A stretch of DNA of 41,448 nt from the NCBI GenBank assembly GCA_947452365.1, contig CANGCO010000015.1:1-41448 (forward strand). Reading direction: 5' to 3'. The notes under the pieces are model-generated. The model was given only the letters and a program-made list of their open reading frames with translations, ran no database searches and was not told the origin of the DNA. Position numbers and translations under genes: made by a program. Shown here piece after piece: positions 14,090 through 41,448 of this stretch; the stretch's first letter is position 1, and every line of letters starts with the position of its first letter. Source of the stretch: Caulobacteraceae bacterium. Its GTDB lineage: Bacteria > Pseudomonadota > Alphaproteobacteria > Caulobacterales > Caulobacteraceae.

Positions 14090-14118
14090 AATAAGCGCCC
14101 CGCCAAACACAAACAGTG

Positions 14119-15299: not shown

Positions 15300-16119
15300 G
15301 ATAAGCGCTTTTGTACTTGTCCTTGAGGACAAGTGCGTGAAACTGTGCCTGCCAATAGCCGACCACTTCATAAGCTTCACCGCCAAGCTCAGACAGAGAC
15401 TCTAGCATACTAGGCAACCGTTCCGATCGTGAGCTCGTGCCCGTCAAATTTTGTCGCAAACTGGTCGGATCAGTAAACACGTCGTGAAAACTAAAGCTGC
15501 AAATCCCGTCGATCTTTATCATGTCACCCTTGGACACAACCGATCCGAGAAAATCACCCTTTACGGTAGCATAGCCATGGGAATAGGCAACATTCTTGAA
15601 AGAATACTTGTCGCCAAAATGATAGATCGGGGTTTTGAGTTCTCTCGCCCAATCAGCGATCTGGCCCTTTAGTCTATGATAGGCACCGTCACCACCAGAG
15701 AAATACGCATATTCCTGAACAATTTCGGCAAATTGGCCGATTTCGGACAGGGTGACGGGTCGGCCGCCGCCACGATAGAAGTGCTCGACAAAGTCCAGAT
15801 CGGTCCAGCGTCTTCCGGTTGAAGCCAGGCTGTCTAAATCAACCAAATAGGCATATTCGGTCTTGCCCTCCTCAAAGGGCAGCGCCAGGCAGCGGCAATT
15901 ATAGTCCTGGCCGGGATGGCCAGTCGGCGGCGGCGTGTCCCAGCGGAAAATCTTACCCTCATTGCGGCGGTGCGAGAGGCGCACCTTGGCATCGCCGCGC
16001 GTTTCCCAGACATATTGCGGGGTCTGACGCGCGTGTTTGAGGCTCAGCTCAATTGGCAGGCCCGTGCGCAGATAGGTGAGATAGGCCGCCCTATAGGCCC
16101 TTGTGTGTTCAAGACTCAT
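15280..16119 (-). CDS. MuF/gp7-type head-protein motif fused to unknown C-terminal domain; putative polymorphic toxin
   Basis: A 279-aa protein with no signal peptide. Residues 36-81 match the end of the phage MuF/SPP1 gp7 minor head protein domain: YVWETRGDAKVRLSHRRNEG followed by PPPTGHPGQDYNCRC, with Asp43, His50, Cys75 and Cys77 at the usual places. Only the last part of that domain is present. Residues 83-160 form a linker, and about 160-279 a predicted beta-rich domain with VKGDFLGSVVSKGDMIKIDG and FSFHDVFTDPTSL. No capsid, terminase or portal gene is near. In MuF polymorphic toxins known from temperate phages the C-terminal part is the toxin and the next gene its immunity; three membrane-anchored paralogues follow here. 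Activity is unknown. A decayed phage protein is the alternative. Confidence 0.62.
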   Translation of the reverse strand: MSLEHTRAYRAAYLTYLRTGLPIELSLKHARQTPQYVWETRGDAKVRLSHRRNEGKIFRWDTPPPTGHPGQDYNCRCLALPFEEGKTEYAYLVDLDSLASTGRRWTDLDFVEHFYRGGGRPVTLSEIGQFAEIVQEYAYFSGGDGAYHRLKGQIADWARELKTPIYHFGDKYSFKNVAYSHGYATVKGDFLGSVVSKGDMIKIDGICSFSFHDVFTDPTSLRQNLTGTSSRSERLPSMLESLSELGGEAYEVVGYWQAQFHALVLKDKYKSAYHVRKKH

Positions 16120-23392: not shown

Positions 23393-24013
23393 ATGACCTT
23401 TAAACATTTGGTCTTAGCAGCGGTCCTCATGGCCGCGCTTACGGGAACCCATGCCATGGCTATCGAGGAACCCGCCTTTAAGGTCGTCCTGCACGAGGGC
23501 GCATTTGAGATCCGCGACTATCCGCCCCTAGTGGTCGCCGAGGTGACGGTCACCGGCGATCAGAAGGCCGCCGCTAGTCAGGGCTTTCGTCTATTAGCGG
23601 GCTATATATTTGGCGGCAATACAAGGCGTCAAAGCATCGCCATGACCGCGCCGGTCGCTCAAGCCCAGACCAGCGAAAAAATCGCCATGACCGCGCCCGT
23701 GACCCAGATCAAGGCCGCAAATGCGTGGGTGGTTCGGTTTAATATGCCCAAGGGCTATAACTTGGCCAACCTGCCCCAGCCCAATGATCCCAAGGTCCAG
23801 CTGCGCGCCCTGCCCGCCAGCCGGTTTGCCGTGCTGCAGTTTTCGGGCCTCGCCGGAACAGATGATGTGACCGCCAAGACTGCCGAGCTGCAAAACCGCA
23901 TCACGACCCACCATCTGCGCCCCACCGGCCCGGTCAGCCTTGCCCGATACAATCCCCCCTGGACCTTGTGGTTCATGCGGCGCAATGAGGTGATGATTGA
24001 GGTGGCACGTTAA
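23393..24013 (+). CDS. Exported SOUL family haem-binding-like protein
   Basis: A 206-aa protein with a signal peptide (KHLVLAAVLMAALTGTHAMA, cleavage near residue 22), so probably periplasmic. The mature part matches the SOUL/HBP family: FEIRDYPPLVVAEVTV at the start, FRLLAGYIFGGN, and the repeated phrase IAMTAPVAQ...KIAMTAPVTQ, which is the clearest family signature. Family members in eukaryotes bind haem or porphyrins; the bacterial role is not established. It has no visible partner gene, and converges on the usher gene with 27 bp between ends. Confidence 0.88.
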   Translation: MTFKHLVLAAVLMAALTGTHAMAIEEPAFKVVLHEGAFEIRDYPPLVVAEVTVTGDQKAAASQGFRLLAGYIFGGNTRRQSIAMTAPVAQAQTSEKIAMTAPVTQIKAANAWVVRFNMPKGYNLANLPQPNDPKVQLRALPASRFAVLQFSGLAGTDDVTAKTAELQNRITTHHLRPTGPVSLARYNPPWTLWFMRRNEVMIEVAR

Positions 24014-26764: not shown

Positions 26765-27663
26765 GGTGCGATGAATTCACGCCCCATAGATTGACCGCCT
26801 CGGTTGAGGTCTTGGTCGCGCCAAGCGATTAATAGGTGTTCGCCAGCGGCTAGCTTGCGCTGAAGTGGCACCTTCAGGCGTAATTGCCCAAGTTCCGGAT
26901 ACACCCCGATCCCATTGACCTCGCCCACCACAGGACCGTTTCGTCCGCCAGACCGCACCACTATGTCGCCATAGAGCGATGCGGCCCCGTCCCGCTCTAG
27001 GTCCATCTCGAGTAGGGCATGGCCATCTTGCACCGAACTGGTGATATTCTTGATCTGCCCTTGGGCATCGATTTGGCCCTGACGATAAATGACCGGGATA
27101 GCCAGGCTGTAAAGCGCAAGCACACGCACTGACAGCGCCTTGGTTTGGCCAGGCGTACCGACCTGGTCTGCGACAAGACCCGTCTCCTCGGGCGGCAGGG
27201 CCGTGATCACAAGATGGGTCCGGTATTCGCCGGGGGCAGCGTCGAGAGGCGGGTGGGCGCGGATTCGAACGGTTTGGCTCTCATGCGGCGCCAACCAAAT
27301 TCGCCGCGGTGTTACCAGCATCAGGTCGCGGGCGGACTTCAGCTTGGCGATCTTTTCGGCCGCAGACGGATCGGACGCTAGATCCGAAACCTTCTTTATC
27401 CGGCCGTCCGCCAGCATAATCTCATCAACCAAATCGACGCTATAATATCCAGACGTCCCGCCTTGGTTAAAGACATAGACCGTCGCCGAACGGGTCTGGG
27501 CATCTAGGACGAGGCGCTTGGGCGAGAGGTTGAGATCAGCGCCCAGCGCGCCAACTTCAAGGCTGGGCCCAGCCCCAAGCGGGCCGGCTTGGGCCGCGTT
27601 CAGCGTCATTGGGTTAGCAATAAGGGCCAGGCCAAGAATAAGGGACGGCATCCTGCAGCTCAT
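26761..27663 (-). CDS. Fimbrial periplasmic chaperone
   Basis: PapD-like periplasmic chaperone, about 300 aa from ATG 27663, that donates a strand to pilin subunits before handing them to the usher. It has a signal peptide (PSLILGLALIANPMTLNAAQA). Mature part: LNLSPKRLVLDAQTRSATVYVFNQG, the typical first strand, then PRRIWLAPHESQTVRIRAHPPLDAAPGEYRTHL, containing the conserved Arg and the PG-x-YR turn of the first immunoglobulin-like domain. Starts at 27696 or 27723 are also in frame; 27663 gives the best signal peptide and leaves the upstream hairpin outside the gene. It overlaps the usher gene by 4 bp, indicating coupling. Confidence 0.85.
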   Translation of the reverse strand: MSCRMPSLILGLALIANPMTLNAAQAGPLGAGPSLEVGALGADLNLSPKRLVLDAQTRSATVYVFNQGGTSGYYSVDLVDEIMLADGRIKKVSDLASDPSAAEKIAKLKSARDLMLVTPRRIWLAPHESQTVRIRAHPPLDAAPGEYRTHLVITALPPEETGLVADQVGTPGQTKALSVRVLALYSLAIPVIYRQGQIDAQGQIKNITSSVQDGHALLEMDLERDGAASLYGDIVVRSGGRNGPVVGEVNGIGVYPELGQLRLKVPLQRKLAAGEHLLIAWRDQDLNRGGQSMGREFIAP

Positions 27664-27705
27664 GCTGTTGGGCTTTCGATAAAAATGGCCGGACATTCGC
27701 AAACC

Positions 27706-27739
27706 AGGGCGCGGCCACGCCAAAGCACCGCCGCGCCCT
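27706..27739 (-). other. Intercistronic stem-loop between pilin and chaperone genes
   Basis: A perfect 10-bp inverted repeat (AGGGCGCGGC / GCCGCGCCCT) with a 14-nt loop, located between the pilin stop codon and the chaperone start. There is no T-run. Such hairpins in pilus operons commonly protect the pilin mRNA or reduce read-through so that subunit is made in excess; that role is inferred here. Confidence 0.55.
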
Positions 27740-28693: not shown

Positions 28694-30277
28694 ATGTTTA
28701 TAGTGCTCGCAGTCGCGGTCGGACTGGCGGCCCAGGCCCCGAATATTGAAGAAAAATCCATTAGTGCGCTTTCAGCTGACCTTCAGGCCGGGCGCTTGAG
28801 TGCCGAAACCCTGGTCACAACTTATCTAGAGCGCATTGCCAAGCTCGATAGCGCGGGCCCGGCCTTGCACAGCGTGATCGTCACCAATCCCAACGCCCTA
28901 GACCAAGCCCGAACTATTGATGCGCGGCGCAGGCACGGCGAGCCGCTTGGGCCGCTCGCTGGGATACCCATTCTGGTTAAGGATAATATCGAAACGGCCG
29001 ATGGTATGGCCACGACCGCAGGGTCTCTGGCCTTGAAGGATAATATTACCGGCCGCGACGCCCCCGTAATCATGCGCCTCAAGGCCGCCGGGGCGATTAT
29101 TCTTGGCAAAACCAACCTGTCGGAATGGGCCAATATCCGATCGACCCATTCCATCAGCGGCTGGTCTGCCATAGGCGGTTTGGTAAAAAACCCCTATGCT
29201 CTGGATCGCAATGTGTGCGGCTCGTCCTCTGGAACTGGAGCGGCAATAGCCGCTAGCCTTGCCGCTGGCGGAGTCGGCACAGAGACGGACGGGTCCGTGA
29301 CCTGCCCAGCCTCGCTCAACGGATTGGTCGGGCTTAAGCCGACCGTCGGACTGGTGTCGCGCCGTCTGATCGTGCCGATTTCCCATAGTCAGGACACGGC
29401 TGGCCCAATGACGCGAAGCGTGGCGGACGCGGCACTCCTGCTCGATGCCATGGCGGGGCCGGATAAGGCCGATCCTGCAACACTGGCCGCACCGCTGGGT
29501 CATGAAAACTATGCCGCGGCCGCTGCCAAGGGCAGCCTGAAAGGCGCGCGGCTTGGTATTTTGCGCTATGCGACCGGCATTAGTCCGGCCGATGATGCGG
29601 TTTTCGAAGACGCACTCAAAACCATGCGTGCGGCAGGCGCTGATCTTGTCGAGATCAAGGACTTCCGTCCCGATCCTGCCGCGGCAGAGGCTGAAGGCCT
29701 GGTCCTGACGGTTGAGTTAAAGGCCGATCTTAATGCCTATCTCGCCAATGCGGCGCCAGCGGTCAAGACGCGTAGTCTGGCGGATCTGATTGCCTTTAAC
29801 GCCCAAAATCCGCGGGAACTGGCCCTGTTCGGACAGGAGTTTTTCGAAGAGGCGCAAAAAACTTCGGGCCTATCAGACCCCGCCTATCTGGCGGCCCTGG
29901 CCAAGGAAAAGAAGCTTTCAGGGCCAGATGGCATCGATGCCTTGGTTGCGACCTATAATCTCGACGCCCTAATCGCGCCTAGCTATGGCCCGGCATGGCG
30001 CACCGATATTGTCGGCGGTGATCATGACGGCGGCGCGATTGCCTCGATCGCCGCACAGGCCGGCTATCCTCATCTTACCGTGCCCATGGGTGCGATCAGG
30101 GGTCTGCCTGTGGGCGTGTCGTTTATTGGCAAGGCATGGAGCGAGGCCAAGCTTTTGGGACTTGGCGCGGCATTTGAGCGCCTCACTGGAGCCCGCTTCG
30201 CGCCCAGCTTTGCCCCATCCGTGGAGGATGGTCCCGATATGCGGCCTCTGCTTGCGCCAAGCCGTTCAAGCCATTAA
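28694..30277 (+). CDS. Exported amidase (amidase signature family)
   Basis: Amidase-signature hydrolase of 527 aa. It carries the full Ser-cisSer-Lys triad: Lys96 in ILVKDNIETA, Ser177 in the GSSSGTG block and nucleophile Ser201 in TETDGSVTCPAS. The spacing of 24 residues between the two serines is that of the family. The N-terminus MFIVLAVAVGLAAQA looks like a short signal peptide, so it is likely periplasmic or secreted, unlike GatA. It has no GatB/C partners. Substrates could be peptide amides, aliphatic or aromatic amides; not determinable. TonB receptor 2 lies downstream on the same strand after 235 bp. Confidence 0.92.
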   Translation: MFIVLAVAVGLAAQAPNIEEKSISALSADLQAGRLSAETLVTTYLERIAKLDSAGPALHSVIVTNPNALDQARTIDARRRHGEPLGPLAGIPILVKDNIETADGMATTAGSLALKDNITGRDAPVIMRLKAAGAIILGKTNLSEWANIRSTHSISGWSAIGGLVKNPYALDRNVCGSSSGTGAAIAASLAAGGVGTETDGSVTCPASLNGLVGLKPTVGLVSRRLIVPISHSQDTAGPMTRSVADAALLLDAMAGPDKADPATLAAPLGHENYAAAAAKGSLKGARLGILRYATGISPADDAVFEDALKTMRAAGADLVEIKDFRPDPAAAEAEGLVLTVELKADLNAYLANAAPAVKTRSLADLIAFNAQNPRELALFGQEFFEEAQKTSGLSDPAYLAALAKEKKLSGPDGIDALVATYNLDALIAPSYGPAWRTDIVGGDHDGGAIASIAAQAGYPHLTVPMGAIRGLPVGVSFIGKAWSEAKLLGLGAAFERLTGARFAPSFAPSVEDGPDMRPLLAPSRSSH

Positions 30278-30338
30278 TCCGCCCGACCAAGGTTTACCGA
30301 CTAAAATCCCCCGCCAAGGCCAGATTTTTCGAAAGCTC

Positions 30339-30353
30339 GCTCAAGCATTGAGC
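30339..30353. promoter_or_regulatory. Short inverted repeat upstream of TonB receptor 2
   Basis: GCTCAA-gca-TTGAGC is a perfect 6-bp inverted repeat in the 235-bp gap between the amidase and TonB receptor 2, about 160 bp before the receptor start. It may be an operator or a small hairpin at the amidase 3' end. Confidence 0.3.
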
Positions 30354-30512
30354 AGGTTTCAGGCATTTGATGCATAGATGTCACAGAAACCGTATAGATG
30401 ACGAAGAATCTTATATTTTTTATTGACCGCTATTGTTTCGCTTAAAAACCGCCCCTTATCTTTTCGTAATCGCCTGCGAACTGCGGCGCTTCTATACGAA
30501 TGGGGGATTTTT

Positions 30513-33506
30513 ATGTTAAACATTAAAAAGTTGTATCTCGTTTCGACAGCATTGGTCGGCTTGGCGGGGGCCTTGCCGAGCATGGGGTTTGCCGCAGACA
30601 AGGCCTCTGACGCGTCCGATGTGCAGGAAATCGTCGTTACGGGATCGCGCATTGCAAGGCCTAATCTGGAACAGCCGACACCGGTCTCCATGCTGTCCAA
30701 TCTTCAGATCGTTAATTCCGGATCGGCGAACCTTGGCGATATTGTCGCCAAATTGCCCAATGTTGGGACTGCGGCCACTGTTCGCGCCAACTCGAACAAT
30801 TACGGTAATAGCGCGGGCATTTCCGCCATTGACCTGCGAAATCTTGGCACGAGCCGCACCCTAGTCCTCGTCGATGGCCAGCGGCACGTGGCCGGCGATC
30901 TTGGCGCCAATGCCGTCGATACCAATTCTATTCCAACGGCGCTTGTAGAGCGCGTGGAAATCATAACCGGCGGCGCATCGGCGGTGTATGGCTCGGACGC
31001 CGTTTCGGGCGTCGTTAATATTGTGATGAAGAAGGCCTTCGAGGGGATTGATGCTTCGGTTCAAACCGGCGGTTTTGACCAGGGCTTTGGCCGAAAAAGC
31101 TCAGCCTCAATTACAGCGGGCCACAACTATCTTGACGGCAAGCTGAATTTTACGGGCTCGGCCTTCTGGACTGAAGAGCAGGCCATCATGGCCCGGCAGA
31201 TTCCAAATAGCCGCAATTATGGAACCATTACCAATCCCAACGATCTGAGTGATAGTCTCGATCCAACCTATCTCAGTTCGCCATCGGCCATTCCCAATAA
31301 CGGCATACCCGATACGCTTTGGGTGCCCAATGTTGGGTCAGAATATGTCGCCCGCAACGGCGTTTTGCTCAGCCCCTATACCTTTAACCCGCTGGTCAGC
31401 TTCGATGCCCATGGCAACCCAATCCCTGTCCCTGTGCGGACCGGCTATAATTCCTTTGCCTTTGGTCAGTTGCCCGCCAACTGCCAGGACTGTTATTTTC
31501 CGGAAGCCTATACGCAAATCTCATCGCCAATTCGCACCCATGGGCTGGAATTTCGCACAAATTATACGGTCAATGATCACCTGCACCTGAGCCTCGATGC
31601 CAAATTCGTCGAGTCCCAGGTCAAGAACCTCATTCAACCCTCTTTCAGTTTTGGTGACTATCAGATTGCGCCAGACAATGCCTTCGTAACCCCAGCCATC
31701 ACGGCAGCGATCGGGGTGGGTAACGAGTTTCCCTATTACGCCGCCTTCATAAATGACGTGAGAGACAGCGCCATTGCCCGGCGTACCTATCGGATCGCGG
31801 GAAATATTGGCGGTGATTTTGATACCAAATATGCCGGTATCCGCTGGGACGGCGCTCTAAACTATGGCCAAACCGCTAGCCATATCGCCAGTGGGGGCAT
31901 TCGCATCAATGAGAATTTTGCTGCGGCCTTTGACAGCGTGATTGACCCGGCAACCCAACGGGCCGCCTGTCGCATCAATGTTCCCTCGGCTCAAGGCGTT
32001 GATTATGTTGCGCCTTCACCGGCCCATCCCAATGCCTGTGTGCCGTTCAACCCATTTGGCTCACTCACCAATTCGGCGGCGGTCTATGGCTATAGCTTTG
32101 GGCGTTATCTGACGCGCGATTTCCTGACCCAAGAAGTTGCCAGCCTAAACTTCGCCACCGATACCAGCAAGGTGTTCAAACTTCAGGGTGGCCCGATCGG
32201 TCTGGCCTTCGGCGGCGAATACCGGATGGAGCGGACCTATGAGCTCAATGATGCGGCCCTGACAGATGGCTCGACGGAGAATCTCGCCTCCGACTCGGCT
32301 GGCGGGTTTAATGTTTGGGAGGCCTATGCCGAAGCCAACCTGCCCATCTTCAACAAGGCGGGTTTTCTTTTGGATGAACTGTCTTTGGACGCGGCCTATC
32401 GCTTTGGCCACTATTCCACGGTCGGGAACGTTTATGCCAACAAGATTAGCGGCATTTATGGACCGGTCTCATGGTTGAAATTGCGAGGCACAGCCGGGCT
32501 TGCTGTTCGCGCGCCGAACATCACCGAGGCCTTCTCCCCGCAGCAACAGTCATATTTCAATGTGACCGACCCCTGCGACCAGACCAATATCAATTCGAAC
32601 GTCAATTATGCCAAGAACTGTGCGGCGGCGGGTATACCGGCAGATTTTGTGTCCAACCTGAACGCGTCAATCATTGGTCAGATTTCGGGCAATCAAGACC
32701 TGTCGCCGGAAAAATCCCTGTCCTATACGGCCGGTTTCGTTATCCAGCCAACCCTAGTTCCCAGACTGACGGTTACGGTCGATTACTATTCGATTCTAAT
32801 TAAGAATGCGATTACGCTGGTCGCCGCTCAGGATATTATCGATAACTGTTTCTCGAATGGCGCGGGTCTAGACAATCAATACTGCTCTTTGTTCAATCGC
32901 GGATCTGACCAGAATATCGATTTTGTTAAGACAACCTATGTCAATGCCGCCAAGGTCTTCACCCAAGGTTGGGAGTTTCAGATCGCATACAATACGCCTG
33001 CGCATGACCTGTTTGGCTCAACCCCTTTACTGAACAAGCTGAACGGCCAATTGGGTATGACGCTCGACGCCAATTATGTGTTCAAGTTGCGCGACTATCC
33101 GTTCCAGAACAATCTCAATCAGTACCATATTCGCGAAGGCGCGATTACGGGCGCCGAGGGCGACGTCCCTTCGGTGCGCGGGATTGCGGACTTGAACTAT
33201 AAAGATGGCCCGTGGAATCTTGACTACCAGATGCGTTATCTGGGCAGGGCTGATCGTTATAGCCGCGACAAAACCGAGGCAGATGGCTCAGAAAGCGTGA
33301 CCTTCCCGGTTGCAGGGGCAAAGGTCTTTCATTCAGTCGCCATACACTATGACGCTTCGAACTGGATGGCGGGGTCTGAAGTTTTTGGCGGTGTGAACAA
33401 TATATTTGGTGAACTACCGCCGATTGGCCTGGTCCAAGGATCGGGTGCTGATGCTGGCTATGAACTTGGGCGTTACGCCTTTATCGGTCTTCGCCTACGT
33501 CGATAG
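30513..33506 (+). CDS. TonB-dependent outer-membrane receptor (2)
   Basis: A 997-aa outer-membrane receptor. Signal peptide LYLVSTALVGLAGALPSMGFA; TonB box region VQEIVVTGSRIARPN; plug with IDLRNLGTSRTLVLVDGQRH and VERVEIITGGASAVYGSDAV; a large barrel with many Asn- and Tyr-rich loops, containing LRGTAGLAVRAPNITEAFSP late in the barrel. The protein ends FIGLRLRR, lacking the usual terminal aromatic residue but keeping the amphipathic last strand. This Ile-Ala-Arg-Pro type plug is common in Caulobacterales and sphingomonads, often near genes for use of peptides or sugars. ATG 30513 follows GGGGGA. A perfect hairpin follows the stop. Confidence 0.93.
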   Translation: MLNIKKLYLVSTALVGLAGALPSMGFAADKASDASDVQEIVVTGSRIARPNLEQPTPVSMLSNLQIVNSGSANLGDIVAKLPNVGTAATVRANSNNYGNSAGISAIDLRNLGTSRTLVLVDGQRHVAGDLGANAVDTNSIPTALVERVEIITGGASAVYGSDAVSGVVNIVMKKAFEGIDASVQTGGFDQGFGRKSSASITAGHNYLDGKLNFTGSAFWTEEQAIMARQIPNSRNYGTITNPNDLSDSLDPTYLSSPSAIPNNGIPDTLWVPNVGSEYVARNGVLLSPYTFNPLVSFDAHGNPIPVPVRTGYNSFAFGQLPANCQDCYFPEAYTQISSPIRTHGLEFRTNYTVNDHLHLSLDAKFVESQVKNLIQPSFSFGDYQIAPDNAFVTPAITAAIGVGNEFPYYAAFINDVRDSAIARRTYRIAGNIGGDFDTKYAGIRWDGALNYGQTASHIASGGIRINENFAAAFDSVIDPATQRAACRINVPSAQGVDYVAPSPAHPNACVPFNPFGSLTNSAAVYGYSFGRYLTRDFLTQEVASLNFATDTSKVFKLQGGPIGLAFGGEYRMERTYELNDAALTDGSTENLASDSAGGFNVWEAYAEANLPIFNKAGFLLDELSLDAAYRFGHYSTVGNVYANKISGIYGPVSWLKLRGTAGLAVRAPNITEAFSPQQQSYFNVTDPCDQTNINSNVNYAKNCAAAGIPADFVSNLNASIIGQISGNQDLSPEKSLSYTAGFVIQPTLVPRLTVTVDYYSILIKNAITLVAAQDIIDNCFSNGAGLDNQYCSLFNRGSDQNIDFVKTTYVNAAKVFTQGWEFQIAYNTPAHDLFGSTPLLNKLNGQLGMTLDANYVFKLRDYPFQNNLNQYHIREGAITGAEGDVPSVRGIADLNYKDGPWNLDYQMRYLGRADRYSRDKTEADGSESVTFPVAGAKVFHSVAIHYDASNWMAGSEVFGGVNNIFGELPPIGLVQGSGADAGYELGRYAFIGLRLRR

Positions 33507-33843: not shown

Positions 33844-34650
33844 CTAGTGCGGCTCCTCACCGCCGGACACATTCATCGACTCCGCCGTGATATAGCCTGC
33901 TCCCTCGGAGCATAAAAACGCGACGGCATTGGCCGTGTCCTCGGCCAGACCTGCGCGGCCCATGGGGATGCGGTTGATCATGGCCGCCATATAGGCAGCG
34001 ACGGAATCGTGACCCGTAACCTTGGCAAAATACTCATTCTGCCATGCGCCGAGGCCTGTGGTCACATGGTTGGGGCAGACATTGTTCAGGGTTATGCCAT
34101 GCGCGCCAAGCTCAATCGCGGCTGAGCGAACTAGGCCAACCAGGCCATGTTTGGAGGCAGAATAGGCTTGAGCATGCGGAAATCCAGACTTGGCGGCTTG
34201 ACTGGCAATATTGATAATCCGCCCGCCCTCGCCTTGAGCGATCATGATTTCAGCGGCGATCTTGATGCCAAAAAAAGCGCCGGTCAGATTAACCTCTATG
34301 ACCTTGGCCCAGTCCTGGGGGGAGACTTCCAGCAACGGCTTCATAATATAGCCTATCCCGGCATTATTGACCCAGATATCCAGTCGGCCAAATTCGGAAA
34401 GGCTTGCCTGGCCCAGCGCCTGGACCTGATCATAATCGGTAACGTCACAAGCTTGGGTTGAGACACTATAGCCCTCTTGCCGACATTCCTGAGCCAGAGC
34501 TTCGATTTCATCGGTCAGCGTCACATCCGACAAGATGATCTTGGCACCCTCGCGCGCCAGTCGCCGCGCAATGGCAATCCCGAGCCCCGCCTCACGACCG
34601 GAACCGGTAATGACGGCAACCTTACCCGTAAGCGGGAGCAACTGGCTCAT
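33844..34650 (-). CDS. SDR family NAD(P)-dependent oxidoreductase
   Basis: Classical short-chain dehydrogenase of 268 aa. Cofactor loop TGSGREAGLG at residues 15-24, NNAG at 95-98, and the catalytic set Asn121, Ser150, Tyr163 and Lys167 (YSASK). Asp42 after the second strand (ILSDV) suggests NAD preference. It would oxidise or reduce an alcohol/ketone of the unknown pathway substrate. It is the last gene of the MmgE/PrpD - HapK-like - SDR operon; only 12 bp separate it from the preceding gene. Confidence 0.93.
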   Translation of the reverse strand: MSQLLPLTGKVAVITGSGREAGLGIAIARRLAREGAKIILSDVTLTDEIEALAQECRQEGYSVSTQACDVTDYDQVQALGQASLSEFGRLDIWVNNAGIGYIMKPLLEVSPQDWAKVIEVNLTGAFFGIKIAAEIMIAQGEGGRIINIASQAAKSGFPHAQAYSASKHGLVGLVRSAAIELGAHGITLNNVCPNHVTTGLGAWQNEYFAKVTGHDSVAAYMAAMINRIPMGRAGLAEDTANAVAFLCSEGAGYITAESMNVSGGEEPH

Positions 34651-34662
34651 GGTCTGGCCCCC

Positions 34663-34971
34663 TTAAGCTTCGATAGATTCGGTCACCAAAAAGGTGACAT
34701 CGGCCATGGCTTGAAACTGGGCTGCGATCTTGGTCATGGTCTCGGTCGCCACATCCTTGCCGAACTGTTCTTCATTATTAATGTCAATAATTTCAATATA
34801 TTGATAGGGCGGTCGCGCATCAGACCCCATAATCGCGACCGCGCGCTCAACGCGGAAACCATCGATGGAACCTAGGCTACGCACGGTAGGCAGGTCGGTT
34901 GTCCGGGCCCAGGTTTCATAGTCTTGCGGGGTAATGCCGGGCTTAAGATTGAACAGGGCGATCAAGCGCAT
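34663..34971 (-). CDS. Small ferredoxin-like-fold protein, REDY/HapK-like
   Basis: A 102-aa soluble protein beginning MRLIALFNLKPGITPQDYETW, followed by DLPTVRSLGSIDGFRVERA and YQYIEIIDINNEEQFGKDV. The pattern is that of the HapK/RedY family of dimeric alpha-beta-barrel proteins, named after genes in prodigiosin-type pigment clusters; similar small proteins also occur in aromatic-degradation operons. The assignment is from memory of the family pattern. Its biochemical role is unclear, possibly a cyclase, monooxygenase-like or isomerase helper. It lies 20 bp after the MmgE/PrpD gene and 12 bp before the SDR, so it is almost surely co-transcribed. Confidence 0.7.
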   Translation of the reverse strand: MRLIALFNLKPGITPQDYETWARTTDLPTVRSLGSIDGFRVERAVAIMGSDARPPYQYIEIIDINNEEQFGKDVATETMTKIAAQFQAMADVTFLVTESIEA

Positions 34972-34991
34972 ATCGGTTCTCCTTTGCTAAA

Positions 34992-36368
34992 TCAGGATTG
35001 GGTGTAAAGCGCCGCCTCAAGATCGTCAGACACATTGGTGCTGTCGGTCAGGGTCATAACGGCATCGGTCAGGGCCTGGTGGCGATCAGCCATACCGGCG
35101 AAAACCATGCAGGCGCTCGCCTTGGTAAGGTGCTGGTCATAGGTCAGGGGAAGCGCGGGTGAGCCCAGCTGCGCTAGGATTGAAACTTCAAACCGTGTGC
35201 CATCGCTTAGAACGGCTGTGGCCAGCGCGGGCGTAAAGGCGGCGGGGTCTTGATTATCGTTCACCACAATTTCGATCTTTTGCGCCAGGGACAGGGTCTG
35301 AGGATCACGCAGGCGATCTGGGGTAAAGTCTTCAAGCCCCACTGTCCCATAGCGCAGGACAAGACTGGCAAGATAAGGCAGGCATAGTCTTGCATAGGCG
35401 GGCGTCATGTCCGCTGTGGCCGGGCGCCCGACAAGCCGATGGATCAAGGGCGGGGCACTATAGGTTAGACGTGCTAATCGCTCTGGCGAAACCGCGTGCT
35501 CCGCCATCAGACGTTGGGTTGCGACAATGCCGCCATGCGCCGCACGGCCAGTTGGGAACGGCTTCCAGCTCACCTCAGAGATCCGAGACACGGTGCCTAA
35601 CTGATTTAAAACATGCGCTAAATCAGCAGAGTCTTCAAATAGGCTGAGATAACCAAAGGGCCCATCGATCGCGCCCTTGGGACCGGGAAGCCCTGCCTGC
35701 GCCAAGTCCAGCGCCTGGATCGCTGAGCGCGCGGCGCCTGCAATTTGAACCGGCAAGGTTGGTAGGCCTTCGAGGTGCGCCTGCATGGTACCGCTGGCAA
35801 AGGCGAGGCCATAGCCGAAGGCATTGATGGTTTCATCGCGGCTAGCACCGCGCAACTTGGCCAAGCCCGCGATACAGCCAAATATACCCGCTGTGGCCGG
35901 GCGAAAGAATTTTAGTGCAGACGTCGCGGCCATGCCGAGCGCCACAGAAATATCAACCCCAGCACACATTGCGGTCAAAAATCTGCGGCCATCACAGGGC
36001 GGGCTGCGATCGATTTCCGCCAAGAGCACCGCAACCAAGGTTGCCAGCGGATGCACGACGGCCGGTTCATGAACGCAATCAAATTCCTGCCCGTGAATTT
36101 GATAGGCATTAACAAAGGCGGCGTTTGGCGCCGGAAGTCGCAAACCCGGGCGACCAAGCACTGTGCTGCCCCTGTCAGCGGGCAGGCCCCAAGCCGAGGC
36201 TGCTGCAAACAAGGCATCAGCATAGGGCGCCTTTTTTCCGGCCAGACCGACGGCTAAGCTATCGTGCAAAAAGAGTTGAGCGCGATGCTTCGAAAGCTCA
36301 TCAAGTGAAGCCCACTGTAGCGATTCAACATAATCGGCAAATACGGCGGATGCGGGCTGAAAATCCAA
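34992..36368 (-). CDS. MmgE/PrpD family protein
   Basis: A 458-aa cytoplasmic protein of the MmgE/PrpD family, which includes 2-methylcitrate dehydratase, cis-aconitate decarboxylase and many catabolic-cluster members of unknown function. Typical parts: a helical N-terminal domain with LFLHDSLAVGLAGKKAPYADALF, NAAFVNAYQIHGQEFDCVHEPAVVHPLATL, an invariant family block with His residues, and SWKPFPTGRAAHGGIVATQ in the second domain. It is the first gene of a three-gene operon and is divergent from the flavoprotein gene with 93 bp between. The substrate is likely a carboxylic acid or hydroxy acid, but that is not known. Confidence 0.88.
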   Translation of the reverse strand: MDFQPASAVFADYVESLQWASLDELSKHRAQLFLHDSLAVGLAGKKAPYADALFAAASAWGLPADRGSTVLGRPGLRLPAPNAAFVNAYQIHGQEFDCVHEPAVVHPLATLVAVLLAEIDRSPPCDGRRFLTAMCAGVDISVALGMAATSALKFFRPATAGIFGCIAGLAKLRGASRDETINAFGYGLAFASGTMQAHLEGLPTLPVQIAGAARSAIQALDLAQAGLPGPKGAIDGPFGYLSLFEDSADLAHVLNQLGTVSRISEVSWKPFPTGRAAHGGIVATQRLMAEHAVSPERLARLTYSAPPLIHRLVGRPATADMTPAYARLCLPYLASLVLRYGTVGLEDFTPDRLRDPQTLSLAQKIEIVVNDNQDPAAFTPALATAVLSDGTRFEVSILAQLGSPALPLTYDQHLTKASACMVFAGMADRHQALTDAVMTLTDSTNVSDDLEAALYTQS

Positions 36369-36422
36369 TTTAAAGTCTCGAAAAACTGACTAGGACCTCT
36401 TAGTATCTAGTTGATTTTGCAT

Positions 36423-36434
36423 GGTTTAGAAACC
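36423..36434. promoter_or_regulatory. Candidate operator in divergent promoter region
   Basis: GGTTT-AG-AAACC is an inverted repeat in the 93-bp region between the divergent MmgE/PrpD and flavoprotein genes, 28 bp before the flavoprotein start. Its position fits a regulator acting on one or both promoters; no regulator gene lies in this window. Confidence 0.35.
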
Positions 36435-36461
36435 GTTTAAAGCTATTTCGGAGCGCAATTT

Positions 36462-37859
36462 ATGTCCGTTATTGTTTCAGGCTCCACGACCTTTGAGGTC
36501 GAGGTCGAGGTGCTGATCATTGGTGGCGGGGCTTGTGGCTTGACTGCGGCCCTGGCCGCCAAAGATGCGGGTAGCGAACCCCTGGTGCTAGAGCGCTGGG
36601 CGAGCTGTTCGGGCAGTAGCAGTATGTCGCTCGGGGCCCTGTGTGCTGCGGGCTCATCCGAGCAAAAACTTAACGACATTGACGATGATGCCGAGGTGTT
36701 TTTCGCCGACATTATGCACAGGACCGGCGGCACGGCCGATCCTGTTATTGCCCGCACTGTGGCGGAAAACAGCGGCCCGGCCCTAGACTGGTTGGCCAAC
36801 CGCCATAATGTGGTGTTCGAGCTTGATCTCGGCTGGCGCCCGGCCTTTGGCCATACGCGGCAAAGGCTACATGCTGTGGCCGAACGCACCGGCCAAGACA
36901 TGATGGCGCGTCTTTTGAACGCCTGCGAACACGCCCAGATTGACATCATGACCGAGGCTCAGGTCACGGATCTTTTTGCCACGCCTGAAGGATTGATCAC
37001 GGGCGTGCGGGTCAAGCGGCCAGATGGAAGCCTTGAGGAGATTGGCTGCAAGGCCATGGTGCTGGCCACGTCAGGATTTGGCGGAAATCGCGACATGATC
37101 ACCCGCCACATCCCAGACATGCAGGATGCGCGCTATTTTGGCTGGGAAGCCAATCAGGGCGATGGAATTCGATGGGGCCAGGCGCTTGGCGCGGCCGTTG
37201 CCGATATGGATGCTTATCAGGGGCTTGGTCTTTTGGCAGAGCCTCAAGGCCTCGACGTCAATCCAAAACTGCTGATCGAGGGCGGCTTTCAGATCAATTC
37301 ACAGGGCGTTCGGTTCAGTCATGAACTCGATGATGTATCAGGCCAGGGCGCGCGCGTGATCCGCCAGCCCGGCGGGTTTGGCTGGGTCATTTATGATCAA
37401 AGAATTCATGAGATCGCCACGACCTTTCCGCAATACCAGGCCTTGATGGCGCTCAATGCCGCAAAGACCGCCGCGACCGCAGAGGATTTGGCGAGACTGA
37501 TGGCCATCGAACCGGGCCCGTTTGCGCAAACCTTGGCCGCGGTGCAGGCCTTGCAACAGGGAGGCGGGATTGATGAATTTGGTCGCCGCTTTGAAGCGCC
37601 AAGCTTAAGCGCGCCCTATTTTGCGCTCAAGGTGACCGGCGCCCTGTTTCACACCCAAGGCGGTTTGGAGATTGATGCCACGGCAAGGGTCAAGCGCGGG
37701 GATGGCAGTTTGCTAGCTAATCTGTTTGCCGGCGGCGGCGCGGCGCGGGGGATAAGTGGTAAGGGGCCGTCGGGATATCTGCCGGGCGCTGGCCTATGTT
37801 CGGCTGTAAGCTTGGGCTTTGTTGCGGGCCAATCGGCCGCCAAGCTTGCAAAAGCCTAA
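36462..37859 (+). CDS. FAD-dependent oxidoreductase, fumarate reductase/3-ketosteroid dehydrogenase type
   Basis: A 465-aa flavoprotein of the FAD-binding-2 family (fumarate reductase flavoprotein, 3-ketosteroid-1-dehydrogenase, urocanate reductase). N-terminal dinucleotide fold VEVLIIGGGACGLTAALAAKDAG, a second FAD block MVLATSGFGGN, and the C-terminal LFAGGGAARGISGKGPSGYLPGAGLCSAVSLG that closes over the flavin. It has no signal peptide or haem-binding motifs, so is a soluble cytoplasmic member. It likely adds or removes hydrogen across a C=C bond next to a carbonyl. GGAG lies 8 nt before ATG 36462. It is divergent from the MmgE/PrpD operon and convergent with TonB receptor 3. Confidence 0.88.
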   Translation: MSVIVSGSTTFEVEVEVLIIGGGACGLTAALAAKDAGSEPLVLERWASCSGSSSMSLGALCAAGSSEQKLNDIDDDAEVFFADIMHRTGGTADPVIARTVAENSGPALDWLANRHNVVFELDLGWRPAFGHTRQRLHAVAERTGQDMMARLLNACEHAQIDIMTEAQVTDLFATPEGLITGVRVKRPDGSLEEIGCKAMVLATSGFGGNRDMITRHIPDMQDARYFGWEANQGDGIRWGQALGAAVADMDAYQGLGLLAEPQGLDVNPKLLIEGGFQINSQGVRFSHELDDVSGQGARVIRQPGGFGWVIYDQRIHEIATTFPQYQALMALNAAKTAATAEDLARLMAIEPGPFAQTLAAVQALQQGGGIDEFGRRFEAPSLSAPYFALKVTGALFHTQGGLEIDATARVKRGDGSLLANLFAGGGAARGISGKGPSGYLPGAGLCSAVSLGFVAGQSAAKLAKA

Positions 37860-37864
37860 GGGTT

Positions 37865-37893
37865 GGGGGCCCCGCCTGAACGGCAAGGCCCCC
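37865..37893. terminator. Stem-loop between convergent flavoprotein and TonB receptor 3
   Basis: GGGGGCC / GGCCCCC pairs as a 7-bp stem, with a small inner GCC/GGC stem. It lies 5 bp past the flavoprotein stop and 11 bp before the receptor stop. No T-run is present; probably a shared bidirectional terminator. Confidence 0.5.
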
Positions 37894-37904
37894 TTAGCCC
37901 AGTT

Positions 37905-40223
37905 TTAGAACCGATAATGGACCCGCACGGCCCAGGTGCCGGGCGTGTTGAAATACTTGTAACCAAACAGGTAGGTCGTGCCCCAATCCTCCATGGTGCA
38001 GTTTTTGCACTCGGCGGAAATCGTCCAGGGCTGGTTGTTCGGGGCTAGCACAAGACCCAGATCCAGCACGGTCCGAGACGGTTCGGCACCGGCAGGCAAA
38101 CCGGCCGTGCTGACATTTTGACGATCAAGCCATTGCACCGACGCGGTTGGACTCAAGACAAAGCTGCCCAAATCCCAGTCATAGGTGGCGCTGGTAGACA
38201 GGGTGGTCTTGGGGCTTTGCGAAGGCTCTGCCAGATTGCCGGCAAGATCAACAATGCCTGCGCCGCAAGCGGGCGTTGCGGCACCGGGCGCAGCGCGACA
38301 GGCGGCCTGTTGGGCCTGAACATTGGCGCTGGGGGACTGATATTTGGCATCCATAAGGCCCAGTTGTGCGGATATGGACAAATGCTCAATCGGACGCCAA
38401 TCCAGATCAATTTCAGCACCATAGGCCCTGAAATCCGCCGCATTAGTGGTCACAAAATCTCCGGCGGTCGGAAGGTCCGACAAGAGCTGATAACTTTTGA
38501 CGTCTGAATAGAACAAGGTGCCGTTGAAACGCAGCTTGCGGTCAGCGCTTTCAGAGCGCAGGCCGGTTTCGTACGACCAAACCGTTTCAGGATTGAAGTT
38601 ATTGAAGGTCTTAGCCTTGAAGGTCAGACCATTCCAACCACCACCCTGAAACCCGCGCGTGGCCGAGGCAAATAGCATCAGGTTCGAATCCACCTGATAC
38701 TGAACCGCAGCCCGGGGCGTGAACTCATCCACGGTCAAATCGGTCTCATAACCAGCGGCGCGAATGTCCTCTGTGGTAAACCCTAGACCTGGCGCATTAG
38801 CCGCGGCGGTTAAGGTTTTTTTCTCGTGCGTAAAGCGCCCGCCAAGGGTCACGGTCAATTGGTCATTGACCTTGTAATCGCCCTGGGCATAGACCGCCGC
38901 CGATTTTGTATCATTCTTGGTCAGCTCATCCCCAAGCGGGGCTGGGAAATAGGTAAAACCAATCAGCGGGCCAATATTGGCGGCAGCGCCGAAATTATTG
39001 CGGTTGGTCTCGAACATATAGAAGGCGCCAGCCGTATAGCTGAGCTTGGGTCCAAGCTCGCCATTCCACTTGACCTCTTGTGAGTACTGATAGCTGCGTA
39101 GCGCTTGAGCGAGGGCAAATTGACCAATCGCGCCTTGATCAAATGGAACCAGCGGGCCGAAAGCGGCCAGCGGGAAGTCCACGCCAAGCTTCTGGTCCAG
39201 CCCGCGAAAGCCAGTAATGAGGGTGAGCGTGCCGCTCGAAAGATCTATCTTCAGATTGGAGCTCGCGCCCCAGCTCTTGACCTGAACGCCTTGGCCAAGC
39301 TTGGACTTATCGCCCGTCAAGAGGGTCGAAAGCGCCGACCCAGCCTTGCTATAGCCGGTATAGGCCACCCGGCCGCTACCATCCACGCCGCCAGGTCCTG
39401 GGAAATTCAGCACATTGGCGGAATCACTGTTGGAATAATCTGCCGCCAAATTCCATTCTAGGTTCGAATAGGCCTTGGGGCGGATGCGCAAGGCTTCACG
39501 AAAGCCGTAGCTTTCGATGTCATTGAGGGTTTCCCCATTGGTCAGGTTTTCGACATAGCCATCATTCTTGGTGTAGAAGGCGGCGCTTCGCGCACTCACC
39601 TGATCACTCAGCGGCGTGTCGACTGCACCGCGCGCACTGATCTGTTTAAAGCCACCATAGGACAGGTCCAAATCGCCGCCAAGGCTATCGCCGGGCTTTT
39701 GCAGGGTGACAACAACCGCGCCGCCCGTCGAATTGCGCCCAAACAGCGTGCCTTGTGGCCCGCGCAGGACCTGAACCTGCTCCACACCAAACAGGGCCAG
39801 ATTATTGGCGTTCTGACGACCAATATAGATGTCATCGACATAGGTGCCGACCTGCGGCTCAAAGGTCGGGAAGGACTGGGTCTGGCCAAGGCCCCGAATA
39901 TAATAGACGTTTGCCGAGCCTTGGCCGACATTGTTCGAGGCAATCATATTGGGCACAAGGCGTGCAATATCCAAGGCTGTCGTGATCTGTGCCCTTTGCA
40001 ATGTCGCCTGGGAAAGACTGGTGACGGCCAAGGGAACTTTTTGCAGGTTCTCGCTGCGGCGCTGGGCTGTGACGATCACTTCATCAAGACCGCCCCCAAC
40101 GGCCTTGTCGGAGGCAGATGCTGGCGCTGCGGCGACGACTTGAGCCAGAACGGGTGCGCTAAGCGTCTGGGCCAGCAGGGCCAATCCTATGGCCGTTGCC
40201 GATTTCAAGACTGATTTCACCAT
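37905..40223 (-). CDS. TonB-dependent outer-membrane receptor (3)
   Basis: A 772-aa receptor. Signal peptide (SATAIGLALLAQTLSAPVLA), TonB box region LDEVIVTAQRRSENLQKVPLAVT, plug with VYYIRGLGQT and VQVLRGPQGTLFGRNSTGGA, and a barrel ending WAVRVHYRF with terminal Phe. Near the C-terminus it has SAECKNCT, a short Cys-Lys-Asn-Cys motif frequent in receptors of this class in sphingomonads and Caulobacterales, where they often accompany catabolic gene clusters. The ligand may be the substrate of the adjoining cluster; this is inference. ATG 40223 follows GGGGA; the frame extends to 40250. Divergent from the methyltransferase gene. Confidence 0.93.
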   Translation of the reverse strand: MVKSVLKSATAIGLALLAQTLSAPVLAQVVAAAPASASDKAVGGGLDEVIVTAQRRSENLQKVPLAVTSLSQATLQRAQITTALDIARLVPNMIASNNVGQGSANVYYIRGLGQTQSFPTFEPQVGTYVDDIYIGRQNANNLALFGVEQVQVLRGPQGTLFGRNSTGGAVVVTLQKPGDSLGGDLDLSYGGFKQISARGAVDTPLSDQVSARSAAFYTKNDGYVENLTNGETLNDIESYGFREALRIRPKAYSNLEWNLAADYSNSDSANVLNFPGPGGVDGSGRVAYTGYSKAGSALSTLLTGDKSKLGQGVQVKSWGASSNLKIDLSSGTLTLITGFRGLDQKLGVDFPLAAFGPLVPFDQGAIGQFALAQALRSYQYSQEVKWNGELGPKLSYTAGAFYMFETNRNNFGAAANIGPLIGFTYFPAPLGDELTKNDTKSAAVYAQGDYKVNDQLTVTLGGRFTHEKKTLTAAANAPGLGFTTEDIRAAGYETDLTVDEFTPRAAVQYQVDSNLMLFASATRGFQGGGWNGLTFKAKTFNNFNPETVWSYETGLRSESADRKLRFNGTLFYSDVKSYQLLSDLPTAGDFVTTNAADFRAYGAEIDLDWRPIEHLSISAQLGLMDAKYQSPSANVQAQQAACRAAPGAATPACGAGIVDLAGNLAEPSQSPKTTLSTSATYDWDLGSFVLSPTASVQWLDRQNVSTAGLPAGAEPSRTVLDLGLVLAPNNQPWTISAECKNCTMEDWGTTYLFGYKYFNTPGTWAVRVHYRF

Positions 40224-40311
40224 GAAAAATCCCCTTTTTCGATCAGCCATTGACCAGCCGATTTGATTGCCGGCGCGTGAACAGCGCGGATGAACAAAGA
40301 AACAATTTTCT

Positions 40312-40325
40312 TTTGCTAATGCAAA
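40312..40325. promoter_or_regulatory. Candidate operator between TonB receptor 3 and methyltransferase
   Basis: TTTGC-TAAT-GCAAA is a perfect 5-bp inverted repeat in the AT-rich 167-bp divergent promoter region, 66 bp before the methyltransferase start. A TTGACA-like box lies just after it at about 40332. Weak evidence without comparison. Confidence 0.35.
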
Positions 40326-40390
40326 TGAAATTTGACATCATACGTCAGATCTTGAACCCCGCTCTAAATACATTCGACGGAGAAACGGCC

Positions 40391-41448
40391 ATGCCCTTGG
40401 AGCTTTCGCATAGTCTTAAGGCGGCGCACGGGCGCGATGCCTTGGCGCGTCAGGACTTTGTTTCAAGCCTGCGAGGCTTCATTCTAAACGATATGGCCAA
40501 TGGTATGAGGGCCCGCTTCGACGAGGTTGTCGCCCCCAATTTTGCCAAGGCCCATGCCCGCGCCCCTGAAACCCAGGACGAGGTGCATGACCTGATGAAA
40601 CAGGACGTGTATTTCAAGTTTTATAGCGCGGTGCGCTATAATGCTCAGGAAATGGTCTGGCGGTCTGTCATTCCGGGTGTTGAGAAGGCCTTGTCCGATC
40701 TCGAGCAGACCTATAGCGCCTTGTCGGGCAGTGCTGGAGGCAGCCTCACCCTCGATCCCAATCTGGGCGTGCCAAACAATGTCTCGGCCGTTGACGTGCA
40801 CCTGATGCCGGGCGGCTATGCCGCCAATGAAACCCTCGGCCCAGGCGCTGTTTATGATAATGGGCTGGCGATTTTTTCTGCAGGATTTATGGGCACTAAT
40901 CTGGACGATATTGGCCAGTCCATCGCTCATTATGTGAAGCAGCGCTTCCCGGACTTTAATCCAACCAAGATTTTGGATTGCGGCTGCACGGTCGGCCATA
41001 ATACGGTCGCCTGGGCCCAGACCTATCCAGAGGCGGAAGTGCACGGCATCGACGTCTCGGCGGCTCTGGTGCGGTTTGCCCATGGTCGCGCCGAAGCCTT
41101 GGGCGTACCCTTACATTACCGACAGATGAATGCCACCAAACTGGCCTATGAAGATGCGTCCTTCGATGTCGTCTTCACTTCGATGTTCCTGCACGAATTG
41201 TCGCTGAAAGACATTCGCGCCTTTTTTGCCGAAGCCCAGCGCGTGCTGCGTCCGGGCGGGCTGTTGATCAATATGGAACTGCCGCCAAACCAAGAACTTG
41301 AGCCCTATGACCAGTTTTATCTGGACTGGGATTGTTATTACAACAAAGAGCCCTTCTACCGGACCTTCCGCGATCAAGACCCGCGTGACCTGATTGCTGC
41401 CGGGGGCTTTAGCAAGGACCGCTATTTTCAGTTTGCCGTGCCGCAATA
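40391..41448 (+). CDS. SAM-dependent class I methyltransferase (3' end cut by window)
   Basis: Open reading frame from ATG 40391 (GGAG 8 nt upstream) to the window end, at least 352 aa without a stop. Residues 1-165 are a helical N-terminal region I do not recognise (ALARQDFVSSLRGFILNDMA at the start). From about 190 a Rossmann methyltransferase domain: ILDCGCTVGHNT (Asp196, motif I), VHGIDVSAALVRFA (motif II), SFDVVFTSMFLHELS (motif IV) and AQRVLRPGGLLINMELP. The second glycine of the usual GCGxG is replaced by Thr-Val. The enzyme would methylate a small molecule, perhaps a pathway intermediate. It is divergent from TonB receptor 3. Confidence 0.85.
   Translation, partial: MPLELSHSLKAAHGRDALARQDFVSSLRGFILNDMANGMRARFDEVVAPNFAKAHARAPETQDEVHDLMKQDVYFKFYSAVRYNAQEMVWRSVIPGVEKALSDLEQTYSALSGSAGGSLTLDPNLGVPNNVSAVDVHLMPGGYAANETLGPGAVYDNGLAIFSAGFMGTNLDDIGQSIAHYVKQRFPDFNPTKILDCGCTVGHNTVAWAQTYPEAEVHGIDVSAALVRFAHGRAEALGVPLHYRQMNATKLAYEDASFDVVFTSMFLHELSLKDIRAFFAEAQRVLRPGGLLINMELPPNQELEPYDQFYLDWDCYYNKEPFYRTFRDQDPRDLIAAGGFSKDRYFQFAVPQ

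Follow-up and report, generated by a model that had tools for sequence, protein, structure and literature searches.

On the evidence of sequence comparison, six neighbouring genes at the right-hand end of a 41,448-bp contig of a Caulobacteraceae genome (G000:C15; the entire contig was analysed and is called the window below) are a real conserved unit with a patchy distribution. They encode, in order, a short-chain dehydrogenase (SDR), a HapK-like protein, an MmgE/PrpD family protein, a flavoprotein, a TonB-dependent receptor and a methyltransferase. All reading frames are open and only that of the methyltransferase is incomplete, because the contig, which ends at position 41448 in this assembly, stops inside the gene. 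We read the set as a module that takes up a nitrogen heterocycle of imide or lactam type and carries out its initial conversion, a proposal that we give an even chance of being correct; judging from the enzyme families linked to the set in relatives, nitrogen-ring catabolism is the best-supported substrate class.

This reading provides a likely function class for genes otherwise annotated as separate, vague families. The set is apparently an undescribed combination of known enzyme families. In the open PubMed Central (PMC) literature, as far as its text was accessible, no paper that appeared to describe the six-gene cluster was found, and a search by plasmid, strain and accession returned none that appeared to concern pJE1, a plasmid that carries a related cluster with all six families.

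Conservation of the set and its partner enzymes

Within the genus, the MmgE/PrpD, HapK-like and flavoprotein genes occur in the same three of seven genomes (G000, which contains the window, G004 and G006) and were not found in the other four. Since they are present or missing jointly, independence of the genes is unlikely. Three of the four genomes without the module are 63-89% complete, and G000 is 97.75% complete. In G004 and G006 the flavoprotein, MmgE/PrpD, HapK-like and SDR genes stand together in the arrangement of the window (about 91-94% and 69-75% identity), with the flavoprotein gene divergent to the MmgE/PrpD gene, as it also is in G043.

An MmgE profile scan of species genomes yielded 444 relatives, and the loci of the best 80 of these, close relatives included, were compared with the window. 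Gene order and counts were obtained by tblastn tiling with hand-picked queries and thresholds, on which they depend, and gene calls in the relatives come from simple scripts and are rough. HapK was found in 48 of the 80 loci, the SDR in 49, and the flavoprotein and the methyltransferase in 35 each; 30 loci hold all four of these families, and 13 hold the receptor in addition. All 48 HapK loci carry the SDR. In 45 of them the two are immediate neighbours on one strand, no more than 51 bp apart in 44 and 179 bp apart in L161 (a partial match), while in L125, L126 and L128 the two genes are ~3 kb apart with the flavoprotein and MmgE/PrpD genes in between. The first-pass annotation had called the HapK-like protein unusual in such a setting, a view that this constant pairing contradicts.

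Loci were also picked by HapK within the family. Out of 24 matches of at least 50% identity, 21 were left after removal of the three genus genomes, with 16 weaker matches excluded. The SDR was present at 55% identity or more in 20 of these loci and at 50% in the other, MmgE/PrpD in 12 and the methyltransferase in 8. Three weaker HapK loci (L114-L116) gave no core partners, and two of them contained a 29-30% amidase match. As a control, 17 marker proteins (MmgE/PrpD is outside this number) were compared with 207,287 bases of other DNA in seven non-random stretches, namely parts of pJE1, the window, G004 and the three weak-HapK loci, and none matched above the same identity thresholds.

All six families were found within about 10 kb on plasmid pJE1 of Sphingomonas sp. 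JE1 (NZ_KM017071, record 2554-44799), at 34% identity for the receptor, 57% for MmgE/PrpD, 63% for the SDR, 48% for HapK, 31% for the methyltransferase and 46% for the flavoprotein. They also occur in three compact clusters, from a Sphingomonas metagenome-assembled genome (MAG; L134), a Rhizorhabdus MAG (L135) and Sphingomonas sp. Y57 (L176), where identities are 55-58% for the flavoprotein and MmgE/PrpD, 63-67% for the SDR, 52-57% for HapK, 52-55% for the methyltransferase and 42-44% for the receptor. As in the window, the flavoprotein gene of the compact clusters is divergent to the MmgE/PrpD gene and accompanied by the other four; in contrast to the window, they have a VOC-domain gene and a LysR-like regulator of their own (by eye) and another gene order. 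A further locus, L154, holds MmgE/PrpD, receptor, HapK and SDR at 57-68%. Taken together, pJE1, the compact clusters, the counts among the 80 loci and the marker control led us to reject a chance grouping of the six genes. The earlier suggestion of a single unit that includes import is borne out by the same recurrence, and the possibility raised with it, that the neighbourhood might be conserved nowhere, does not agree with the six families found together on pJE1, in the compact clusters and in 13 of the 80 loci.

The pJE1 cluster unites all six families of the window, the receptor among them, along with a regulator, but differs in its additional enzymes, whereas the window holds the core only. 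The additions comprise two PuuE-type hydrolases, an isochorismatase-type amidase, two LeuCD pairs, HyuAB, a CaiB protein, a GntR-type regulator and two lyases, one of the isocitrate lyase/phosphoenolpyruvate mutase family and one of the hydroxymethylglutaryl-coenzyme A (HMG-CoA) lyase type. The one PuuE-type protein of pJE1 that was tested scored 80.3 bits against the NCBIfam model of the allantoinase PuuE (TIGR03212), below its cut-off of 424.6, and a PuuE-type protein from an island showed clear family resemblance to the PuuE structure 3cl6 (E 9.3e-66). The best solved match of the pJE1 isochorismatase was 4l07 (E 1.6e-31), followed by 4l08, with 3ot4 and 3uao also matched; the search itself names the isochorismatase family only, and we take these structures to be maleamate amidases.

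Similar partners recur across lineages. A larger island surrounds the HapK-SDR pair in Caulobacter, Brevundimonas, Phenylobacterium and others; it contains a PuuE-type hydrolase, an HpcH/HpaI lyase, a RipB/Ich-like hydratase, an acyl-CoA dehydrogenase, two CaiB CoA-transferases, a PaaK-like ligase, an amidase and often a second MmgE/PrpD gene (families typed on single representatives); amidase and CN_hydrolase families are both present in the larger islands. In Azospirillum, Niveispirillum and Nitrospirillum, the SDR, flavoprotein, MmgE/PrpD and HapK genes have an isochorismatase gene and a pair of PuuE-type genes as neighbours. Of 60 loci at least 18 kb long, 34 have a PuuE-type gene nearby, 15 an isochorismatase-type gene and 24 LeuC, and 48 have at least one of seven downstream families. 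HyuA/HyuB relatives were found on pJE1 and in 7 of the 80 loci (L127, L147, L155, L162, L173, L181 and L198).

Forms of the cluster are carried on large sphingomonad plasmids, of which pJE1 (L118/L203) is typed in PLSDB as mobilizable and pTomTYG65b (L122) as conjugative; such carriage fits the patchy distribution. DUF3108-like genes were seen in 25 of the 80 MmgE-picked loci, and in L109 (G147:C96, 1-10923) four of them lie between two methyltransferase relatives, beside HapK, SDR, LeuC and isocitrate lyase genes.

The encoded proteins

The HapK-like protein scored 48.9 bits against PF11639 (cut-off 25), and a sequence search of solved structures returned HapK of Hahella chejuensis (2jdj, REDY-like; E 7e-07). 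Its AlphaFold model (predicted local distance difference test score, pLDDT, 95.3) has 2jdj as best structural match, with Z 13.0 and a root-mean-square deviation of 2.9 over 97 residues; nearly level with it are small barrel enzymes including the Passiflora hydroxynitrile lyase, RslO4, SnoaB and olivetolic acid cyclase. This modelled likeness allows a catalytic role for the HapK-like protein, and is no proof of one. The window protein shares the Pfam family and fold of Hahella HapK but is only 29% identical to it, and its setting looks catabolic rather than devoted to prodigiosin synthesis: no prodiginine or bisindole biosynthesis genes were seen near the HapK-like gene in the window, on pJE1 or in the related clusters examined. 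The enzymology of the HapK-like family becomes testable in this catabolic-looking setting with its constant SDR partner, which is about 62-94% identical to the window SDR in related loci.

The MmgE/PrpD protein scored 147.1 and 82.4 bits for the N and C domains (cut-off 32.1), and its orthologues are 46-92% identical. By sequence, its closest solved structures are cis-aconitate decarboxylases. In the profile alignment H106 is retained, and R156, L205 and L312 occupy the positions of the His, Lys and Tyr that we take to be catalytic in those enzymes; all four window residues are invariant across a 12-sequence alignment. The protein thus belongs to the same family by profile as cis-aconitate decarboxylase and other MmgE/PrpD enzymes but is altered at three aligned positions presumed to be catalytic, and we rejected cis-aconitate decarboxylase as its function on these replacements.

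For the flavoprotein, the earlier label of a fumarate-reductase type stands as to fold family and fails as to the active site. It reached 227.6 bits against the flavocytochrome c model TIGR01813, below the cut-off of 285.45. In pairwise alignment with 1qo8 the His of the QAHPT motif is replaced by Leu, the Arg of TRDK by Ser, and the Arg of YNRLGG is lost, positions which we take to be the dicarboxylate-binding residues (Fcc3 His365, Arg402 and Arg544). Since the protein misses the cut-off and has lost these positions, it is unlikely to act as a fumarate reductase, and we set that assignment aside. Ketosteroid dehydrogenase and 4-oxocyclohexanecarboxylate dehydrogenase models were also matched, all below cut-off.

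The plug and barrel domains of the TonB receptor are above cut-off (64.3 and 130.4 bits); its relative in L154 is 57% identical. The methyltransferase model is fair (mean pLDDT 70.4), with an N-terminal region that is not interpretable, and its best structural matches are S-adenosylmethionine (SAM) methyltransferases. The sole PADLOC match in the analysis, mad2 to a methyltransferase domain (63.9 bits), was taken as a generic domain match.

Substrate class and competing explanations

We favour a nitrogen ring as substrate because families acting on C-N bonds (PuuE-type, isochorismatase, amidase, CN_hydrolase, HyuAB) recur near the core in relatives. Read jointly, these partners most simply suggest that an imide or lactam ring is opened and the product deamidated, after which an alkyl-maleate-like acid is hydrated and cleaved by a lyase, with alkyl-maleimides perhaps as intermediates. 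Along such a route the TonB receptor would import the compound. The HapK-like protein and the SDR would act as a pair, combining a barrel-protein step with an NAD(P)-dependent carbonyl or alcohol step. The flavoprotein might add or remove a hydride pair at a C=C (or C-N) bond of a substrate other than a simple dicarboxylate, the MmgE/PrpD protein could be a lyase, isomerase or epimerase, and the methyltransferase may modify the substrate or a product. In relatives, a PuuE-type (or HyuAB-type) enzyme would next open the ring, followed by a maleamate-type amidase; the product would then be hydrated by LeuCD-type enzymes and split, either by a member of the isocitrate lyase family or by a CoA-dependent lyase, to give central metabolites and ammonia. 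The amidase, LeuCD-type hydratase and isocitrate-lyase-family lyase of pJE1 fit the same logic as the lower path of nicotinate fermentation (2,3-dimethylmaleate, dimethylmalate, lyase) and the maleamate pathways, an analogy whose partner genes are not in the window.

A number of findings weigh against this reading. A PuuE-type gene was not found (E up to 1e-10) in G000 or the six other genus genomes, nor in the three compact-cluster genomes; the query itself works, because 6 of the 10 genomes in the second search matched. Searches of G000, G004, G006 and the L134 genome (E up to 1e-20) gave no isocitrate-lyase-family gene of the kind discussed above. The only genes of G000 that look linked, encoding isochorismatase (37%), CaiB (33%) and HyuB (73%) relatives, are on another contig, C18; G002 and G003, in which the module was not found, likewise have relatives of HyuA and of the isochorismatase. 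Because such module-less genus members have these relatives too, we set the C18 genes aside as unlinked. Among the 80 MmgE-picked loci, 30 (some of them short contigs) lack HapK, SDR, flavoprotein and methyltransferase altogether, and the flavoprotein was near in none of the 21 HapK-picked loci, several of them short, of which 12 have MmgE/PrpD. All seven downstream families are missing from 12 of the 60 long loci, including the compact L134 and L176 (L135, shorter than 18 kb, is outside the 60), although five of the 12 have HyuA/HyuB. A further catabolic region of pJE1, distinct from the cluster (L205, record 122000-171000), contains a thiolase, a P450 adjoined by an EthD-domain gene, a ring-hydroxylating dioxygenase subunit, another MmgE/PrpD and CoA enzymes, a mixture of aromatic- and lipid-type catabolic genes, so the plasmid is not single-purpose. 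Finally, the methyltransferase has no obvious place in the proposed route.

The larger island is therefore unsupported as the window's own pathway, given the missing PuuE-type gene in the genus searches and the missing lyase in G000, G004 and G006. With no PuuE-type gene found in G000 or in the compact-cluster genomes, the downstream steps of the relatives are not directly transferable, and we claim for the window an upper, uptake-and-conversion module, leaving the lower path aside. Two of the three compact-cluster genomes do hold isocitrate-lyase-family, LeuC and LeuD genes, with a HyuA relative near these in both, and there the HyuA relative may replace the PuuE-type step. In Sphingomonas sp. 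Y57 (the L176 genome) these genes form a separate stretch (L232), in the vicinity of which lie the HyuA relative, receptors and a gene of HMG-CoA-lyase-like type.

A narrower version of the nitrogen-ring route, which we consider unlikely, would make the module the front end of a bacterial route for pyrrole-derived pigments (bilins, phyllobilins, chlorophyll oxidation products), the pigments giving rise to alkyl-maleimides or related lactams. Relatives would open these by PuuE- or HyuAB-type hydrolases and proceed through an alkyl-maleate and an alkyl-malate to a lyase, pyruvate-type products and ammonia. Leaves, roots, lakes and cyanobacterial blooms are the presumed sources of some carriers, in part according to record titles. 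If true, the proposal would bear on how bacteria recover the carbon and nitrogen bound in the remains of chlorophyll and bilins; we know of no described pathway for this, and none was found in the open PMC literature, within the text it makes accessible. One study found haematinic acid in leaves but could not detect maleimides, and cites older work in which both had been reported from senescent leaves and lake sediments (PMC7318184).

The first-pass annotation had listed terpenoids, steroids, lignin aromatics and cyclic acids as possible substrates. These are unsupported so far, the enzymes linked to the core in relatives including several families of C-N hydrolases, alkyl-malate-type enzymes and CoA enzymes, yet they remain compatible with the compact form of the cluster. 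In a competing explanation the set would serve the general catabolism of some plant compound without nitrogen (a terpenoid, steroid or aromatic), and the C-N hydrolases of some relatives would have been added later. We regard this as a minority possibility, though one to be taken seriously. It would account for L134, L135 and L176, where no C-N hydrolase of the tested families was seen in the locus and no PuuE-type gene in the genome, and it agrees with the sub-threshold flavoprotein matches to the ketosteroid and 4-oxocyclohexanecarboxylate dehydrogenase models. A HapK-like gene of Novosphingobium MBES04, a putative counterpart only, is also given as 1.9-fold higher on a lignin model dimer in the accessible part of its report (PMC4609964). 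The recurrence of five C-N hydrolase families at the same core across lineages stands against it, and the annotation of pJE1 record 1-52142, the part with the cluster, lists neither a thiolase nor a ring-hydroxylating oxygenase, in a gene table that is incomplete; such genes lie elsewhere on the plasmid (record 52143-121999 is outside the portions examined).

Catabolism of an itaconate- or citramalate-like dicarboxylate, with the MmgE/PrpD protein acting like a cis-aconitate decarboxylase and feeding the CaiB, MaoC (RipB) and HpcH/HpaI lyase enzymes of the islands, appears quite improbable to us. The larger islands do hold CaiB, a RipB/Ich-like hydratase and an HpcH/HpaI lyase, and the solved structures nearest to the MmgE/PrpD protein are of the required kind, but R156, L205 and L312 replace the presumed catalytic residues of the decarboxylase, the one island RipB/Ich protein tested scored 224.7 bits against an equivalog cut-off of 340, and CaiB, RipB and HpcH/HpaI were not found in the window. 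HapK/RedY proteins are known from prodigiosin clusters, and with Hahella HapK 2jdj as best structural match and a methyltransferase present, HapK might be a RedY-like pigment-pathway protein in secondary-metabolite tailoring. This we judge very improbable: among the annotated or Pfam-typed genes examined in related clusters there are no polyketide synthases, non-ribosomal peptide synthetases or prodigiosin condensing enzymes, and CoA-transferases, lyases, GntR-type regulators, major facilitator superfamily transporters and TonB uptake point to catabolism.

Gene layout and neighbouring features

The six genes lie where they had first been placed and belong to the families first named, which in every case are Pfam matches above cut-off (Table 1). 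The close operon spacing described earlier was also found, with 20 bp between the MmgE/PrpD stop and the HapK start and 12 bp between the HapK stop and the SDR start. Of the two divergent promoters proposed at that time, the two divergent gene pairs are present, but no promoter signal was seen in either intergenic gap: a sigma-70 consensus scan gave 6 sites against 4.7 expected and none in these gaps. Alignment with relatives indicates that the methyltransferase most likely starts at ATG 40391 and not at the upstream TTG 40250, and the receptor may start at 40223.

Table 1. Position of the six genes and of the two divergent intergenic gaps in the window (aa, amino acids; ORF, open reading frame).
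Feature	Position	Strand	Family or remark
SDR, NAD(P)-dependent short-chain dehydrogenase by family, 268 aa	33844..34650	-	Pfam PF13561/PF00106
HapK/RedY-like dimeric alpha-beta-barrel protein, 102 aa	34663..34971	-	PF11639
MmgE/PrpD family protein, 458 aa, TTG start	34992..36368	-	PF03972 + PF19305
Intergenic gap, 93 bp, between divergent MmgE/PrpD and flavoprotein genes	36369..36461		Without consensus sigma-70 site
FAD_binding_2 flavoprotein, 465 aa	36462..37859	+	PF00890
TonB-dependent receptor, 781 aa, start possibly 40223	37905..40250	-	PF00593 + PF07715
Intergenic gap between divergent receptor and methyltransferase genes, starts taken as 40223 and 40391	40224..40390
Class I SAM methyltransferase with extra N-terminal region, incomplete at contig end	40391..41448 (ORF open from 40250)	+	Methyltransf_25 PF13649

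Directly to the left of the module, an amidase (above cut-off, NCBIfam NF006006) and a second large TonB receptor are encoded on the + strand (28694-33506). The amidase has a weak match in one plasmid locus (L120, 32%), and the receptor has none in the related genus or plasmid loci compared. A SOUL heme-binding protein (PF04832, 168 bits) is encoded at 23393-24013, ~10 kb from the module; it is suggestive beside the pyrrole-pigment idea, with no evidence linking it to the module. At 24041-27723, a large protein and a smaller one upstream resemble a fimbrial usher and chaperone by eye, without such a match in Pfam. Three adjacent genes of ~200-220 aa (13514-15386), which have no Pfam match, look like paralogues by eye with a common motif near the N terminus, and adjoin a gene whose product has a Phage Mu F-like domain (15280-16119).

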